A DNA stretch of 64,000 bases from contig NZ_WKJP01000001.1 of assembly GCF_009674585.1 (NCBI RefSeq), forward strand, positions 1,178,001-1,242,000. The letters are read 5' to 3'. The notes under the pieces are model-generated. The model was not told the origin of the DNA and searched no databases. It saw only the letters and a list, made by a program, of their open reading frames with translations. The stretch comes from Haloferax marinisediminis (GTDB lineage Archaea > Halobacteriota > Halobacteria > Halobacteriales > Haloferacaceae). This document shows positions 7,964 to 58,866 of the stretch, one piece after another. Position 1 is the first letter of the stretch. Every line of letters starts with the position of its first letter. Both the position numbers and the translations under genes were made by a program.

Positions 7964-8419
7964 TCAGGCGTTGTCGCCGGAATTATTCTGGCGGCCTGAC
8001 GAGGTTTCCTCGTCATCGTCACCAGATTCTGTCTGGTGGGCAGACGAGCTCTGCTCGTCATCGTCGCCGGCGGTGATGGGAATGGTCCGCTTCGAGGTGG
8101 CCTCACGCTTGGGGAGGCGAACCTCGAGGACCCCGCGTTCCATCGATGCTTTGGCCTCGTCGGCGACTGCGTCCGGAGGCAGTGGGAGTTCGGCGTCGAG
8201 GAACAGTGGTCGCTCTTCGCGCACGTAATCGAACTCCGGCGAGAGTTGCTTGTCACGCCGCGCTTCGACGACCAATCGGCCTGTTTCGACTTTGAGGTCG
8301 GCAGTCTCGGCGGTCACGCCCGGGAGGTCGAGAACCAACAGGTACGACGTTTCGGACTCCAACAGGTCGGCGAACACCGCGTCCGGAAGTTCGGACAGCG
8401 CGTCGCGCAATGTTGACAT
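7964..8419 (-). CDS. Hsp20/alpha-crystallin small heat shock protein with repeat tail
   Basis: ATP-independent chaperone, 151 aa. The alpha-crystallin domain runs from about residue 25 to 112 (SYLLVLDLPGVTAETADLKVE, RGVLEVRLPKRE). The tail (about 118-148) is two 15-residue acidic/serine repeats, DDDEQSSSAHQTESG and DDDEETSSGRQNNSG, whose DNA forms four mini-hairpins (separate entry). Such a tail is not part of the normal Hsp20 fold. The ATG at 8419 is preferred over a TTG two codons upstream. First gene of a probable operon with the AarF kinase. Confidence 0.9.
   Translation of the reverse strand: MSTLRDALSELPDAVFADLLESETSYLLVLDLPGVTAETADLKVETGRLVVEARRDKQLSPEFDYVREERPLFLDAELPLPPDAVADEAKASMERGVLEVRLPKREATSKRTIPITAGDDDEQSSSAHQTESGDDDEETSSGRQNNSGDNA
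7976..8059 (-). repeat. Array of four mini-hairpins (two 45-nt in-frame repeats) in hsp20
   Basis: Four 17-nt inverted repeats, each a 7-bp stem with a 3-nt loop, lie at 7976-7992, 7998-8014, 8021-8037 and 8043-8059, separated by 5, 6 and 5 nt. Plus-strand examples: GACGAGG-TTT-CCTCGTC and GACGAGC-TCT-GCTCGTC; two of the four contain one G-T pair. Two hairpins plus spacers make 45 nt, exactly 15 codons, matching the 15-residue repeats of the protein tail. The same architecture occurs in the kinase gene at 38547-38608. Confidence 0.85.
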
Positions 8420-8578
8420 GAACAACCATAGGGAGTCGGTGTCGAAAAAGCCGGCGGTCCTTCAGGGGGTGCGCGGGCGCGTGTGCCGGCAAATTCGGCC
8501 GCCTCCAGTGGGATGGTTCGGGCCCATTGGTCCCGATGGGGGGCCGACGCTTTTTGTTCCCGGCACCAAAGGACGGCC

Positions 8579-38245: not shown

Positions 38246-40024
38246 TCAGTTCTGTGTCGTCTCGGCAGCTACTGATTCGGACTCGGTTTCGACGTCTGTG
38301 AACTCGAATCGCGCCCCACCGGACGCCGCCGACGTGAGCGTGACCGACCACCCGTGCGCCTCGGCCACCGACTTGACGATGGGGAGCCCAAACCCAGTGC
38401 CGTCTTCGTGTGTCGTGTAGCCGCGTTCGAACACGTCCTCGCGCTTGGATTCTGGGACACCGGGGCCGTTGTCTTCGACGTAGAACCCATCGTCGAGTCG
38501 GCCGACGGTGACAGAGAGGGTGGCAGCAGGCTTCGACTGGTCGGTGGTCGAGCTATGCTCGACAGCCTCGCCGGACGAGGTCCGGCTGTCTGTGGAACTG
38601 TGTTCTACAGCATTCCGAAACAGGTTCTCGAACAGCTGTCTGAGTCGGCTTCGGTCGGCGGCGACCGTCTCGTCGGTCTGCACGTCGAGTGTCGAGTTCC
38701 CGACGGCGACGCTATCCCACGCCTCGTGTGCGACGGTGCGAATCGCGATTGGAGAGACGTCAGTGAGTGTCTCACCCTGCCGAGCGAGTGTGAGCAAGTC
38801 GTCGATAATCGTCTCCATTCGGTCGTGCGCGTCCTCGACGCGGTCGAAGTAGTCGTCGTCACCTGTCTCACGTGCCAACTCGTGGTAGCCTCGGGCGACC
38901 GTCAGCGGATTTCGAAGGTCGTGTGAGACGACCGAGGCGAACTCTTCGAGACGGTCGTTCTGGCGTTGGAGTCGGCGCTCACGCTCTTTTCGTTCGGTGA
39001 TGTCACGAACGAGGAGCAACGTCCCAGCAGTCGCCGTATCCGCTCCGAGCGTGGTCGTGTTCACCAGCAGGTCTCGTGGATTGCCGTCGAGCGACACTGT
39101 CGCCTCCGACTTCGACGGGTCGTCGAGAACCGCCATAATCGCCGACGGCAGGACCTGTTCAGCGGGACGGCCGTACGAATCGACGAGGGAACCTGTGAGA
39201 AGCGATTCACCTGACGGATTCGCGTCGAGGACTCTGTTCCCACCGTCGAGGACGATTGCGGACCCCTTCATCGACTCGACTGCAGACTCCCAGGCGATGG
39301 GGGTGAGTGTGAACAACCGGTGGCGGAAGACACTCCACGCGACGGCAGTCGACGTGAGCGAGAACGCCAGTGCGGGCAGGTTCAACCCCGGAACTGGACT
39401 CGCGTCCGCGACGTAGATGATGCCGCCAACTGCCGGGACGAGTCCACCGACGAGGAGGCCGAGCGTCTGTTTTCGGTAGATTCCGTCCGCGTGGAGAAGC
39501 GTCCGTAAGAGAACCCCGACACCGACGAAGATGAGGACGTAGGCGTAGACGATGAACCCGGTGAACGCGATGCTGTGGTCGTTGACGAGGATGACGTAGC
39601 CGCTCTGTTCTGAGAGCCAGAGGTCGTCCCAGATGAGTCCGTGCCACTGGTTCGTCAGCGCGAGACCGGCGACGAGTGCCGAGATACTTCCGAGGCCGGC
39701 CCACACCGCTCGGGGCAGGTCGTCGAAGCCAGCGTGGCGCATCACGTACGCGAGCCACAAGAGCGGGAGTGGCGCGATTCCGAGGTAGCCGAGTTGGTTC
39801 AACAAGACCTTGGCCGCGAAATCGGTCCGGGAGAGTTCGAGGGCGTACATCCCCATCCAGAACCCAGATACGAACAGCAACAGCGCACCGAGTGTCGCAC
39901 CGGGGACGAGACGGCGTTTGGTACGGCGCCGGAGCAAGTAGACTCCGAGAACCACGAACAGGCCCGCACCGACCCCGAGCGGGATTGTGTAGGGTGTCGA
40001 CTGCCAGTGGGTCGCGCCGTGCAT
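38246..40024 (-). CDS. Sensor histidine kinase with seven-helix N-terminal domain and PAS
   Basis: 592 residues. Seven hydrophobic segments fill residues about 10-225 (HisKA_7TM type), then a PAS domain (SAIVLDGGNRVLDANPSGESLLTG), HisKA with FASVVSHDLRNPLTVARGY, and HATPase with FENLFRNAVEHSST, VEDNGPGVPESKR and GTGFGLPIVKSVAEAHGW. Directly after the N-box the protein carries a 15-residue insertion that repeats the N-box motif (AVEHSSTDSRTSSGE then AVEHSST), matching the mini-hairpin repeat described separately. No response regulator is adjacent. ATG at 40024 chosen before MHGATHWQSTPYTIPLG. Confidence 0.92.
   Translation of the reverse strand: MHGATHWQSTPYTIPLGVGAGLFVVLGVYLLRRRTKRRLVPGATLGALLLFVSGFWMGMYALELSRTDFAAKVLLNQLGYLGIAPLPLLWLAYVMRHAGFDDLPRAVWAGLGSISALVAGLALTNQWHGLIWDDLWLSEQSGYVILVNDHSIAFTGFIVYAYVLIFVGVGVLLRTLLHADGIYRKQTLGLLVGGLVPAVGGIIYVADASPVPGLNLPALAFSLTSTAVAWSVFRHRLFTLTPIAWESAVESMKGSAIVLDGGNRVLDANPSGESLLTGSLVDSYGRPAEQVLPSAIMAVLDDPSKSEATVSLDGNPRDLLVNTTTLGADTATAGTLLLVRDITERKERERRLQRQNDRLEEFASVVSHDLRNPLTVARGYHELARETGDDDYFDRVEDAHDRMETIIDDLLTLARQGETLTDVSPIAIRTVAHEAWDSVAVGNSTLDVQTDETVAADRSRLRQLFENLFRNAVEHSSTDSRTSSGEAVEHSSTTDQSKPAATLSVTVGRLDDGFYVEDNGPGVPESKREDVFERGYTTHEDGTGFGLPIVKSVAEAHGWSVTLTSAASGGARFEFTDVETESESVAAETTQN
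38547..38608 (-). repeat. Three mini-hairpins in the histidine kinase N-box region
   Basis: 17-nt inverted repeats at 38547-38563 (GTCGAGC-TAT-GCTCGAC), 38570-38586 (GCCGGAC-GAG-GTCCGGC) and 38592-38608 (GTGGAAC-TGT-GTTCTAC, one G-T pair), spaced by 6 and 5 nt. Start-to-start distance between first and third is 45 nt, or 15 codons, and the protein repeats AVEHSST at that spacing. Same architecture as 7976-8059. Confidence 0.85.
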
Positions 40025-40121
40025 GAGGGGGAGTGAGTAGACAGGGGTTAAAACTCCAACTCTCGCCACCGGAGACCGACCAATCAGAAAGGACTTTCCG
40101 GCACCCATCGAACTCCCGTCT

Positions 40122-41441
40122 ATGATTGGCATCGTCGGCGGCGGCATCGCGGGCCTCGCCGCGGCGCATCGACTCCGGAAACGGGGTCACGACGTTCGCA
40201 TCTTCGAGGCGTCCGACTCACTCGGCGGCCTCGCGGCCACCTACGAGACGAAAGGTGACGATATCGAACGGTACTACCACCACCTCTCGAAATCTGAAGA
40301 GACCATCGTCGAACTCGCCGAGGAACTCGGCCTCGGCGACGAGTTAGAGTGGCACATCGGCAAGAACGCCTACTACGTCGACGGCGTCGTCCACCCACTG
40401 GACACGGCGTGGCAAATCGCCGCGTACCCACACATGAGCCTCTACGACAAGTTCCGTCTCGGCATGCTCACCCTCGGAATCGACGTTCGCGGCGGCTTCC
40501 CCGACTTCGACGCCTACGAGGAACTCGCGGAGTACGAACACACTCCCATCCGCGACTTCGTGGTCGAGCACACCACACAGGGCGTCTACGACAACTTCGT
40601 CGAACCCCTGTTGGATGGTAAATTCGGCGAGCGCAAAGACGACGTGTCGGCAGCGTGGTTCCTCGGGCGCGTCCGCTTCCGCGGTGAGCGTGACCTCCTT
40701 CGCGGCGAGCTCCTCGGCTACTTCGACGGTGGCTTCGCACCGCTCATCGACGCGCTCGTCGATGCGGTCGGCCGCGAGAACATCCAGACTGGCGCTCGGG
40801 TCACAGAACTCGACACCGGCGGCGAGGGCGGGGACGTCGAGACGATTACCGTCGAGACAGACGACGGCACAGAGACCCACGAGGTCGATTCGGTCGTCGT
40901 CGCCACGATGCCGAACGTCCTCGAAGACCTCACTGGCTACCAGTGCGACATCGACTTCCAGGGCGCAGTGTGTGGACTGGCGACGATGTCCGAGTCGCTG
41001 ATGGACACCTACTGGCTCAACATCGCCCACGACGCACCCTTCGGGTCGCTCATCGAACACACGAACTTCGTCCCGCCGGAGCAGTACGGCGGCGACCACT
41101 TGCTCTACGTCGCGAGTTACGTTCAGGGACCGCACGAAGACCTCTGGCAAATGAGCGATGAGGAGGTCGAGGACGTCTGGTTCGACGAAATCGAGGACAT
41201 GTTCCCCGACTTCGACCGCTCGGCCGTCGAGGAGTTCAAAATCGCCCGCAACCCGCGTGCCGGACCAGTGTACGAACGTGGCTACCTCGACCTCGTCGTC
41301 CCCTACGACCTCGCAGACGACGTTGCAGAGGGCGTCTACTACGCCGGGATGGCCTCCGAAGCGCAGTACCCCGAGCGCTCGCTCAACGGCGGTATCGTCG
41401 CAGGCTACGAAGTCGCCGACCGCATCGACGAGCGACTGTAA
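40122..41441 (+). CDS. FAD-dependent amine oxidase/protoporphyrinogen oxidase-like protein
   Basis: 439 residues. FAD-binding motif IGIVGGGIAGLAAAHRLRKRGHDV with SDSLGGLAAT at the N-terminus, and the C-terminal VYYAGMASEAQYPERSLNGGIVAGYEVAD closing the FAD site. The middle (HMSLYDKFRLGMLTLG, FVEPLLDGKFGERKDDVSAAWFLGR) resembles UDP-galactopyranose-mutase- and desaturase-like flavoproteins. The substrate is not clear. It is divergent from the histidine kinase. Confidence 0.87.
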   Translation: MIGIVGGGIAGLAAAHRLRKRGHDVRIFEASDSLGGLAATYETKGDDIERYYHHLSKSEETIVELAEELGLGDELEWHIGKNAYYVDGVVHPLDTAWQIAAYPHMSLYDKFRLGMLTLGIDVRGGFPDFDAYEELAEYEHTPIRDFVVEHTTQGVYDNFVEPLLDGKFGERKDDVSAAWFLGRVRFRGERDLLRGELLGYFDGGFAPLIDALVDAVGRENIQTGARVTELDTGGEGGDVETITVETDDGTETHEVDSVVVATMPNVLEDLTGYQCDIDFQGAVCGLATMSESLMDTYWLNIAHDAPFGSLIEHTNFVPPEQYGGDHLLYVASYVQGPHEDLWQMSDEEVEDVWFDEIEDMFPDFDRSAVEEFKIARNPRAGPVYERGYLDLVVPYDLADDVAEGVYYAGMASEAQYPERSLNGGIVAGYEVADRIDERL

Positions 41442-47151: not shown

Positions 47152-47443
47152 TCGGCACCCGACGCCCGATATTTTCACCCTCTCAGCCACGACTGCGTCT
47201 CTCTCGGATTGCTCTCTGCGGTTCTCTCTCGTCCACTCTGTGGCACTCTCTCGTCTACCCTGCGGCCCTCTCTCTCGTCCACTCTGTCTCTCTCGACTTC
47301 TCTGTGTCTCGGCCTCTTTGTGCGCTGTCGTGCCCTTCCCTGTAGAGGCCGCTCGTCGGTTCTCGTGTGCGCCGACGCGAGTACCCGAACTGACTGGTGA
47401 CTGTCGTGAGGATGTTATATTTGGTAGACCCTAGCAAACATTT
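47152..47443. other. Pyrimidine-rich intergenic region, 292 nt
   Basis: No gene seen. From 47190 to 47340 the plus strand is dominated by CT runs, including a 19-nt direct repeat at 47223-47241 and 47269-47287 (TCTCTCTCGTCCACTCTGT). After 47400 it becomes AT-rich, with gatgttatatttgg as the promoter candidate for the gene at 47444. Confidence 0.6.
47223..47287 (+). repeat. 19-nt direct repeat in CT-rich tract
   Basis: TCTCTCTCGTCCACTCTGT occurs at 47223-47241 and 47269-47287, exactly 46 nt apart, within a strand-biased pyrimidine tract. A further partial copy (ctctctcgtctaccctg) sits between them. Confidence 0.8.
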
Positions 47444-57560: not shown

Positions 57561-57629
57561 ACCGGACGTTCGGTTGGTGGTGACAAAAGCGCGCGGGACA
57601 GTGGTCGCGACACGCTGCCGGAGTGGCGT

Positions 57630-57661
57630 CCCTCAGAACCCTTCTCCCTCAGAACCCTTCT
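57630..57661. repeat. 16-bp tandem duplication at the end of the Eis-like gene
   Basis: CCCTCAGAACCCTTCT occurs twice in direct succession (57630-57645, 57646-57661). It includes the stop codon, so a second copy of the last codons and stop lies just after the first. Confidence 0.85.
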
Positions 57662-58866
57662 CGGAGATAGACGTCACGCTCGGTGAACACCGAACCAAGG
57701 GCGTCGACAGCAGACGACTCGTGAACGGTGAGGTACTCACTCTGTGCAAGTTCGTCGACCGACCGAGCGCCGACGAGCAGTTGCGAGAGCGCCCCGATTT
57801 CGACGGTTGCATCGGGGTCTGCTGTCGTCGGTTCGACCGACGCCTCGCCGTCGGTGACGACGACCCGGAACGTCTCGTCGTTCCACGCACAGCGGTCGTC
57901 GGACACGTCGAAGACGAACGCAGACTCGGCAGCTGTCGGGTACGACACCGCTTCGAGCGCTGCGGCCACGTCGACGATACGGACCATCGGCCCGGGCTTG
58001 ATTTCGACCGTCGCTGCGCGCGGGTCGGTCAGGTCGTCGATGAGACGGGTTCGCTCGTGCTCTCGTTCGAAGACCACCGAATCCACCTGTGAGTCGTGGT
58101 CGCGAACGAATCGCAGGAGGTGTCGCTGTGCCTCGGTATCCACGCCCGCGAGCTGGTCGACGTGCATCGTCCGCGACTCCCAGTCGCCTTTGACGCGGTA
58201 GACGACGTACCCTCTCAGGTCGCCGTCCAGTTCCCACCCGTAGACGTATGGGTCTGTCTCCCAGCCACGGAAGACACGATATCGCCACCATCCTTCGGTT
58301 CGGTCGAGTGCGAGGTCTTCGGTGGCCGAGTCGGCGTAGACGGCGTCGAGGCGGTCCCAGTCGTCGGCTCTGAGACGGACGAACTCGCCGCGCGCGGCTG
58401 GACACACCGCGGTGAGTTCTTCAGGCGAGACCGTCGTCTTCGCGTAGTTGTTGGTTGTCGCCCACCCAAAGCGCCGATAGAACTCGTATTTGAACGGCCA
58501 GAGCGCCGAGAGGTACCGACCGGTCTCCCGGAATTCGACGAGGAGATCGTCGAGCATCGTCGCGATGTGGCCTTGCCGGCGCGCCTCGGGCGGCGAGGCG
58601 ACCGCGGTGATTCCGGGCAGTGGATGCCACTCGCCGCGGACGCGTGCTTTGTAGTCGTAGAAACCACAGACCGTCACGAGGGCCGACGAATCGAGGTCCT
58701 CGAGTGGTGTCTCTGGCGGGACGTCGTAGAGGCCGCGGCGGACGTAGATGTCCGGGTGGGGGTGGTCGTCGTCGTCCCAGTCGGGACCACCCTCCGGACG
58801 GAAGGCGTAGTTGAGGAACTCGCGGTAGGTGTCGCGGTGTTCCTCGGGAAGTGGGTGGAGGTGCAT
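57649..58866 (-). CDS. Eis-like GNAT acetyltransferase with SCP2-type C-terminal domain
   Basis: 405 residues. The first GNAT half has ITAVASPPEARRQGHIATMLDDLL (acetyl-CoA loop), then FYRRFGWATTNNYAKTTV and a second GNAT-like part. The C-terminal 100 residues (FRVVVTDGEASVEPTTADPDATVEIGALSQLLVGARSV, read in halves) resemble the SCP2-like domain of Eis proteins. Mycobacterial Eis acetylates aminoglycosides and proteins; the archaeal substrate is unknown. ATG at 58866 (MHLHPLPEEHRDTYREFL); the last codons are duplicated by a 16-bp repeat. Confidence 0.9.
   Translation of the reverse strand: MHLHPLPEEHRDTYREFLNYAFRPEGGPDWDDDDHPHPDIYVRRGLYDVPPETPLEDLDSSALVTVCGFYDYKARVRGEWHPLPGITAVASPPEARRQGHIATMLDDLLVEFRETGRYLSALWPFKYEFYRRFGWATTNNYAKTTVSPEELTAVCPAARGEFVRLRADDWDRLDAVYADSATEDLALDRTEGWWRYRVFRGWETDPYVYGWELDGDLRGYVVYRVKGDWESRTMHVDQLAGVDTEAQRHLLRFVRDHDSQVDSVVFEREHERTRLIDDLTDPRAATVEIKPGPMVRIVDVAAALEAVSYPTAAESAFVFDVSDDRCAWNDETFRVVVTDGEASVEPTTADPDATVEIGALSQLLVGARSVDELAQSEYLTVHESSAVDALGSVFTERDVYLREGF

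Follow-up and report, generated by a model that had tools for sequence, protein, structure and literature searches.

The repeat in a membrane histidine kinase gene of Haloferax marinisediminis is probably a short array of a 45-nt double-hairpin DNA element that lies in frame within genes across the archaeal class Halobacteria. The element itself is likely to be palindromic, mobile-like and compatible with the proteins that carry it, with a class-wide distribution; it is shorter than the Rickettsia palindromic elements (RPEs), is made of two hairpins and keeps one constant frame. In-frame palindromic elements had been recorded chiefly in a few intracellular bacteria and a single methanogen; with a class-wide case in Haloferax and other culturable, genetically tractable genera, the way they move and form new protein segments would become directly testable. 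The element also accounts for oddities in haloarchaeal alignments, namely the short polar inserts of conserved enzymes and the 'VEHGST' repeats of kinases.

Two arrays in the window

The features found in the window, which is the 64,000-nt stretch of the H. marinisediminis genome that was analysed, are collected in Table 1. In the kinase, whose HisKA and HATPase_c domains were confirmed, the 62 nt at 38547-38608 were arranged as A (17)-5-B (17)-6-A' (17), each hairpin having 7-3-7 geometry; the spacers were AGACA (5 nt, A to B) and GAGGCT (6 nt, B to A') and the period was 45 nt. The three hairpins described in the sequence-only reading, with their spacers and their period after the N-box, were thereby confirmed on the coding strand. 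Pairing was perfect in B and A' (7/7 base pairs each); as a small correction, the first hairpin, A, paired at 6/7 positions with one A.C mismatch. The A-N-A loops assigned to the A-type hairpins were found as ACA and ATA. The encoded peptide, beginning at the N-box Asn, is NAVEHSSTDSRTSSGEAVEHSST. When folded as single-stranded DNA, 38547-38608 beat 200/200 dinucleotide shuffles (z -4.4), and Rfam 15 at its gathering score gave 0 matches in 7 loci.

Table 1 Features of the kinase and hsp20 loci in the window. R2 is a covariance model described in the text.
Feature	Position	Strand	Details
hsp20-family gene, second host	7964..8425	-	array in C-terminal tail; Pfam HSP20 9e-13
First hsp20 unit, 45 nt	8018..8062	-	A 8043-8059, B 8021-8037; R2 match 8015-8065, E 1.6e-17
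Second hsp20 unit, 45 nt	7973..8017	-	A 7998-8014, B 7976-7992
Host gene, membrane histidine kinase	38246..40147	-	domain matches HisKA_7TM, PAS_4, HisKA, HATPase_c
Hairpin A, GTAGAAC-ACA-GTTCCAC	38592..38608	-	codes VEHSST; directly after N-box catalytic Asn-Ala codons
Hairpin B, GCCGGAC-CTC-GTCCGGC	38570..38586	-	codes SRTSSG stretch
Hairpin A', GTCGAGC-ATA-GCTCGAC	38547..38563	-	second VEHSST, other synonymous codons
Predicted 45-nt unit, NNC/NNT-A-5-B-GAN	38567..38611	-	boundary rule from filled/empty alleles; edges +/- ~3 nt

The hsp20 array (7976-8059, minus strand) had a hairpin geometry identical to that of the kinase array. The repeat that the two genes had been proposed to share is real, as both hold an A-5-B-6 unit in one frame. 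We read 0.8 Mb of the chromosome of this species in stretches, and a scan for the geometry gave a third gene, coding for a zinc-ribbon protein in the same genome, and then a fourth. In kinases, the VEH[GS]ST peptide coded by the A hairpin would rebuild the end of the N-box helix; extra units lengthen the loop that follows, and their effect on kinase activity is probably mild or none.

Distribution, hosts and insertion boundaries

A first covariance model, R1, found the unit in many genes of 14/15 Haloferax species. With a second model, R2, built from 28 non-kinase copies, the A-5-B unit was detected at E<=1e-5 in 335/391 Halobacteria genomes and 77/86 genera, which are lower bounds because 15 candidates were scored per genome; the kinase copy of the window was matched at 38564-38614 (E 1.8e-9). 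As a control across the phylum at the same threshold, R2 matched 43/51 members of the class and 1/243 other Halobacteriota, this lone match being at 6e-6, so that matches outside the class did not exceed chance. The element is thus restricted to Halobacteria among the genomes searched. Its generic non-kinase peptide is DVDEQxSSARQTQSGDV, the consensus is approximately DVDEQSSSARQTQSGDV, and the 15-residue hydrophilic form can be written [DVA]-E-x-x-S-[STA]-x-x-[RQ]-T-x-S-[GD]-D-x. In one haloarchaeon, probably of low GC (G028), eight identical 51-nt copies (L456-L463) lie within a longer dispersed repeat.

The kinase form was searched for separately with a codon-degenerate pattern of two VEHxST copies 45 nt apart. 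Such arrays were present in 67/391 Halobacteria genomes and 25/86 genera, and the control, the reversed pattern, gave 0. Extended to 84,980 genomes of bacteria and archaea, the search returned 86 stretches, all from Halobacteria or from assemblies that are haloarchaeal by title, with one bearing only the title 'uncultured archaeon'. In nearly all translated loci the array started at the N-box. It had been suggested that kinase N-boxes may be the source of the unit, and this is unsupported: the generic form occurs in 77 genera versus the 25 of the VEH array form, and most of the generic copies examined lie in proteins without an N-box. Another spacing class is seen at L049 and L053, where VEHGST arrays have a unit of 48 nt (SPDSQTRQDA) or longer.

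The hosts are unrelated and often essential proteins. By Pfam they include aconitase, PEP synthase, TsaD, Val- and Ile-tRNA synthetases, FolD, sulfite reductase, anthranilate synthase, A-ATPase E, ABC ATPases and P-type ATPases; the names LigA and CofG, used below, and other functions outside the Pfam scans were assigned by us from the protein sequences. We sampled 90 loci from the class-wide list. Both flanks were confidently coding in 69 of them, with 21 left undecided, and in 69/69 the element was sense to the gene and in a single frame (phase 0), the R2 matches having been sampled from the best scores, so that intact copies are favoured. In one genome (G055), 3/10 copies examined had flanks without coding support (L469, L470, L473).

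Filled and empty alleles were found at several loci. LigA carries an extra 45 nt in 4/15 Haloferax species; CofG carries 45 nt in the window's species versus an empty counterpart (95% protein identity); and for an ABC ATPase there are alleles of +45 and of +51 nt as well as empty ones. The cleanest case is ValRS, with +45 nt in one Haloferax species and flanks 98-100% identical in empty close relatives. The kinase locus of the window is variable as well. Among its Haloferax orthologues, two had no repeat (G006, at 83% identity, and G010), two had one added unit (G011, G014), one had two (G013) and one had five (G008), a range of 0 to 5 in the allele comparison that the sequence-only reading had proposed. 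Its idea that the repeat is compatible with coding and spreads or expands is supported by units that are present or absent, and by copy numbers that vary, between orthologues; we checked for the opposite picture, a constant length with no relatives elsewhere, and found that lengths vary and that other genes contain relatives.

For CofG, LigA and a case within an insertion sequence (IS), in all of which the insertion is exact, the simplest rule is that NNC-A-5-B-GAC was inserted without clear duplication. Under this rule the palindromes lie 3 nt from each terminus, and each 6-nt spacer within an array consists of the GAC end of one unit and the NNC start of the next. The triplet left of A equalled the triplet right of GAC in 20 cases versus 10.4 by chance, and ValRS reads AGC on both flanks where its empty relatives read TCC, which a pure insertion fails to explain; a 3-nt duplication or local conversion at the insertion site is possible. 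We rejected a target duplication of 6 nt (GACGTC on either side), since the empty ValRS allele reads GA[GT]TCC and not the flanking GACAGC, and since a non-coding pair shows insertion of GTC...GAC. Copying of the A stem from the host site (GAGGA in ValRS) was also rejected, as GAGGAGC stems are found elsewhere (L353). Two ABC transporters of different genera (L340:1501-1551 and L354:1501-1551) have the element after an FYD/LYD motif downstream of Walker A, and this shared position suggests a site preference or a tolerance.

Stem pairing and neighbouring units

The stems were kept paired while their sequences varied. Of 238 A hairpins (119 distinct units), 198 were perfectly paired despite varied combinations of third-codon letters; for example, GTG GAA CAC GGT TCC AC and GTC GAG CAC GGC TCG AC both code VEHGST. 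In 39 diverse array units, double-change cells numbered 131 versus 45 when shuffled, and 94.7% of cells were paired versus 22-43% with slid partners. For non-kinase copies there were 60 double-change cells versus 20, and 0/500 shuffles reached the observed counts. Compensation changes the encoded residues in B hairpins and in the A hairpins of non-kinase copies, as in the coordinated non-synonymous change from GAC..GTC (D..S) to GCC..GGC (A..A). We infer that the conserved thing is the DNA structure rather than the peptide.

This bears on whether the peptide itself was selected, as a halophilic surface loop or a protein-binding tag, with the palindrome as a by-product of codon bias. The single frame, the consistent Ser/Thr/Asp-rich peptide and the VEH N-box residues kept in kinases would all fit a selected linker. 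However, the compensatory changes keep the palindrome at the cost of the peptide (also N..GD to S..DD), synonymous V, E, G and S codons are matched inside each hairpin, and decayed copies (TsaD, L451 and L453) keep an intact frame while peptide and stems are lost. We regard this explanation as extremely improbable.

If a ladder of mRNA hairpins had been selected to regulate the translation or stability of its hosts, the coding strand would likewise be expected to pair strongly and to covary. Against this, the element is present or absent between close species in essential genes, its hosts have no common function and some copies lie outside genes. An RNA helix, moreover, tolerates G.U, whereas the corresponding G.T was no commoner than A.C among the mismatches (generic stems, G.T 3 and A.C 8; VEH stems, G.T 16 and A.C 27). 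Selection or generation at the DNA level therefore fits better than an mRNA helix, and the mRNA ladder seems very improbable.

The spacing of the hairpins was equally regular. In the VEH arrays the ladder at 22/23-nt spacing occurred 131 and 137 times over ~0.98 Mb of loci, versus 0-22 occurrences for every other spacing pair tested, and these other matches are mostly skipped hairpins within the same arrays. A rival account is that replication slipped on the hairpins and so duplicated the kinase N-box locally in tandem, the likeness to hsp20 being convergence. It would be in keeping with the start of the VEH arrays at the N-box, with their varying copy number and with the near-identical adjacent units of some arrays (e.g., four in G144). 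Slippage, however, predicts alike neighbours, whereas adjacent A stems were unlike at both variable pairs in 77/119 cases versus 37 expected and alike in 16; related arrays are not independent, and in a deduplicated set the stems were unlike in 11/23 versus 5 expected. This suits the adding of different units or the losing of identical neighbours, and not slippage alone. In addition, dozens of unrelated genes share the S-x-x-[RQ]-T-x-S-[GD]-D peptide and the A-5-B-6 geometry, and single-copy insertions whose empty alleles are shorter by exactly 45 nt contradict slippage as a full account. As such an account it is improbable; it could be the source of growth of individual arrays.

Possible mobility and known elements

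We consider it about evenly balanced that a selfish 45-nt two-hairpin DNA, moved in single-stranded form by a haloarchaeal activity, invaded the proteome of the class and survives as a harmless polar in-frame peptide, the mechanism of mobility or stability keeping stems paired and adjacent copies dissimilar. On the main reading the element would spread as DNA, probably via a single-stranded hairpin intermediate, and the only copies to persist would be those inserted sense, in frame and within surface loops, since the peptide there is soluble and flexible. Arrays would grow because a further unit can be set beside, or copied next to, an existing one. The leading candidate for the mover, as yet unproven, would be an IS200/IS605-type HUH transposase acting in trans, and we rate this route as rather unlikely. 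The stems vary too much for a transposase with simple sequence specificity. The window's genome gave no Y1_Tnp match, so TnpA need not be present now.

Structures like those modelled by R2 were seen in or beside several IS605 loci, near tnpA. At the non-coding upstream end in one family of IS200/IS605 elements the double hairpin was present in three loci (L370:1326-1382, L379:1957-2013 and L365:1239-1295), and the same site was without it in three others (L362, L364 and L372). We had considered that the matches near tnpA are IS ends; because IS copies without the insert exist, they are insertions there. A related 51-nt in-frame insert, SGGIEDSADLAEQSSAQ, lies in the TnpA genes of L364, L365, L372 and L373 (near 1480-1529); it has two hairpins in the other order and is absent from TnpA of L362, L370 and L379.

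A sharper form of the mobile-element reading takes each unit for a terminal-only PATE, in which the two ends of an IS200/IS605-type transposon have fused and can still be moved in trans. Two hairpins ~5 nt apart, short ends and no clear target duplication would suit it, as would the R2 matches in or beside IS605 loci and the identical copies in the dispersed repeat of G028. The total size is near that of the 52-bp terminal-only forms of Haloquadratum PATEs, which may be mobile; the cited part of PMC3119063 describes PATEs as having near-terminal palindromes and no target duplication. The double hairpin, however, is present or absent between IS copies at one site, which marks it there as an insert and not an IS end. 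We think this form possible but doubtful. The haloarchaeal element resembles PATEs in having palindromes close to both termini; in the same part of PMC3119063, PATEs are not described as in-frame protein insertions. Its two separate hairpins, in place of an inverted end pair, and the lack of a consistent target duplication set it apart from MITEs.

RPEs were reportedly described by Ogata in 2000 and 2002, with a counterpart in Wolbachia. They are palindromic DNA inserted in frame in unrelated functional, often essential genes, where they code for a recurrent peptide, and they also occur outside genes; several sequence families exist in one bacterial genus. The haloarchaeal element is likewise palindromic and inserted in frame in unrelated genes, with empty orthologues found, but it has two hairpins instead of one long palindrome, keeps to one frame, forms tandem arrays and extends over nearly a whole archaeal class. 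RPEs are ~150 bp long (PMC10969869), unlike the 45-nt element. Given this length, we say that the element works like an RPE and do not file it as a member; by analogy, it appears to be a haloarchaeal counterpart of RPEs that has not been described. The open-access papers searched held no description of it in haloarchaea, an absence that is weak evidence.

The archaeal precedent cited in part of PMC2996958 is palindromic repeats within coding genes of Methanocaldococcus jannaschii only. These belong, as cited there, to one hyperthermophile species. The same source presents PARCELs, which are considered mobile, as dyad-symmetric coding repeats in tandem that encode 25-residue amphipathic domains in membrane proteins, with none in the archaeal genomes of the time. 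The haloarchaeal unit differs from them in coding for 15 hydrophilic residues.

Two other repeats were noticed in the window. At 47223-47322 there is an array of 16-22-nt repeats, TCTCTCTCGWCCACTCTGTGGCA-like, with no link to the double-hairpin element seen, and at 57629-57662 there is a perfect two-copy tandem of TCCCTCAGAACCCTTC.
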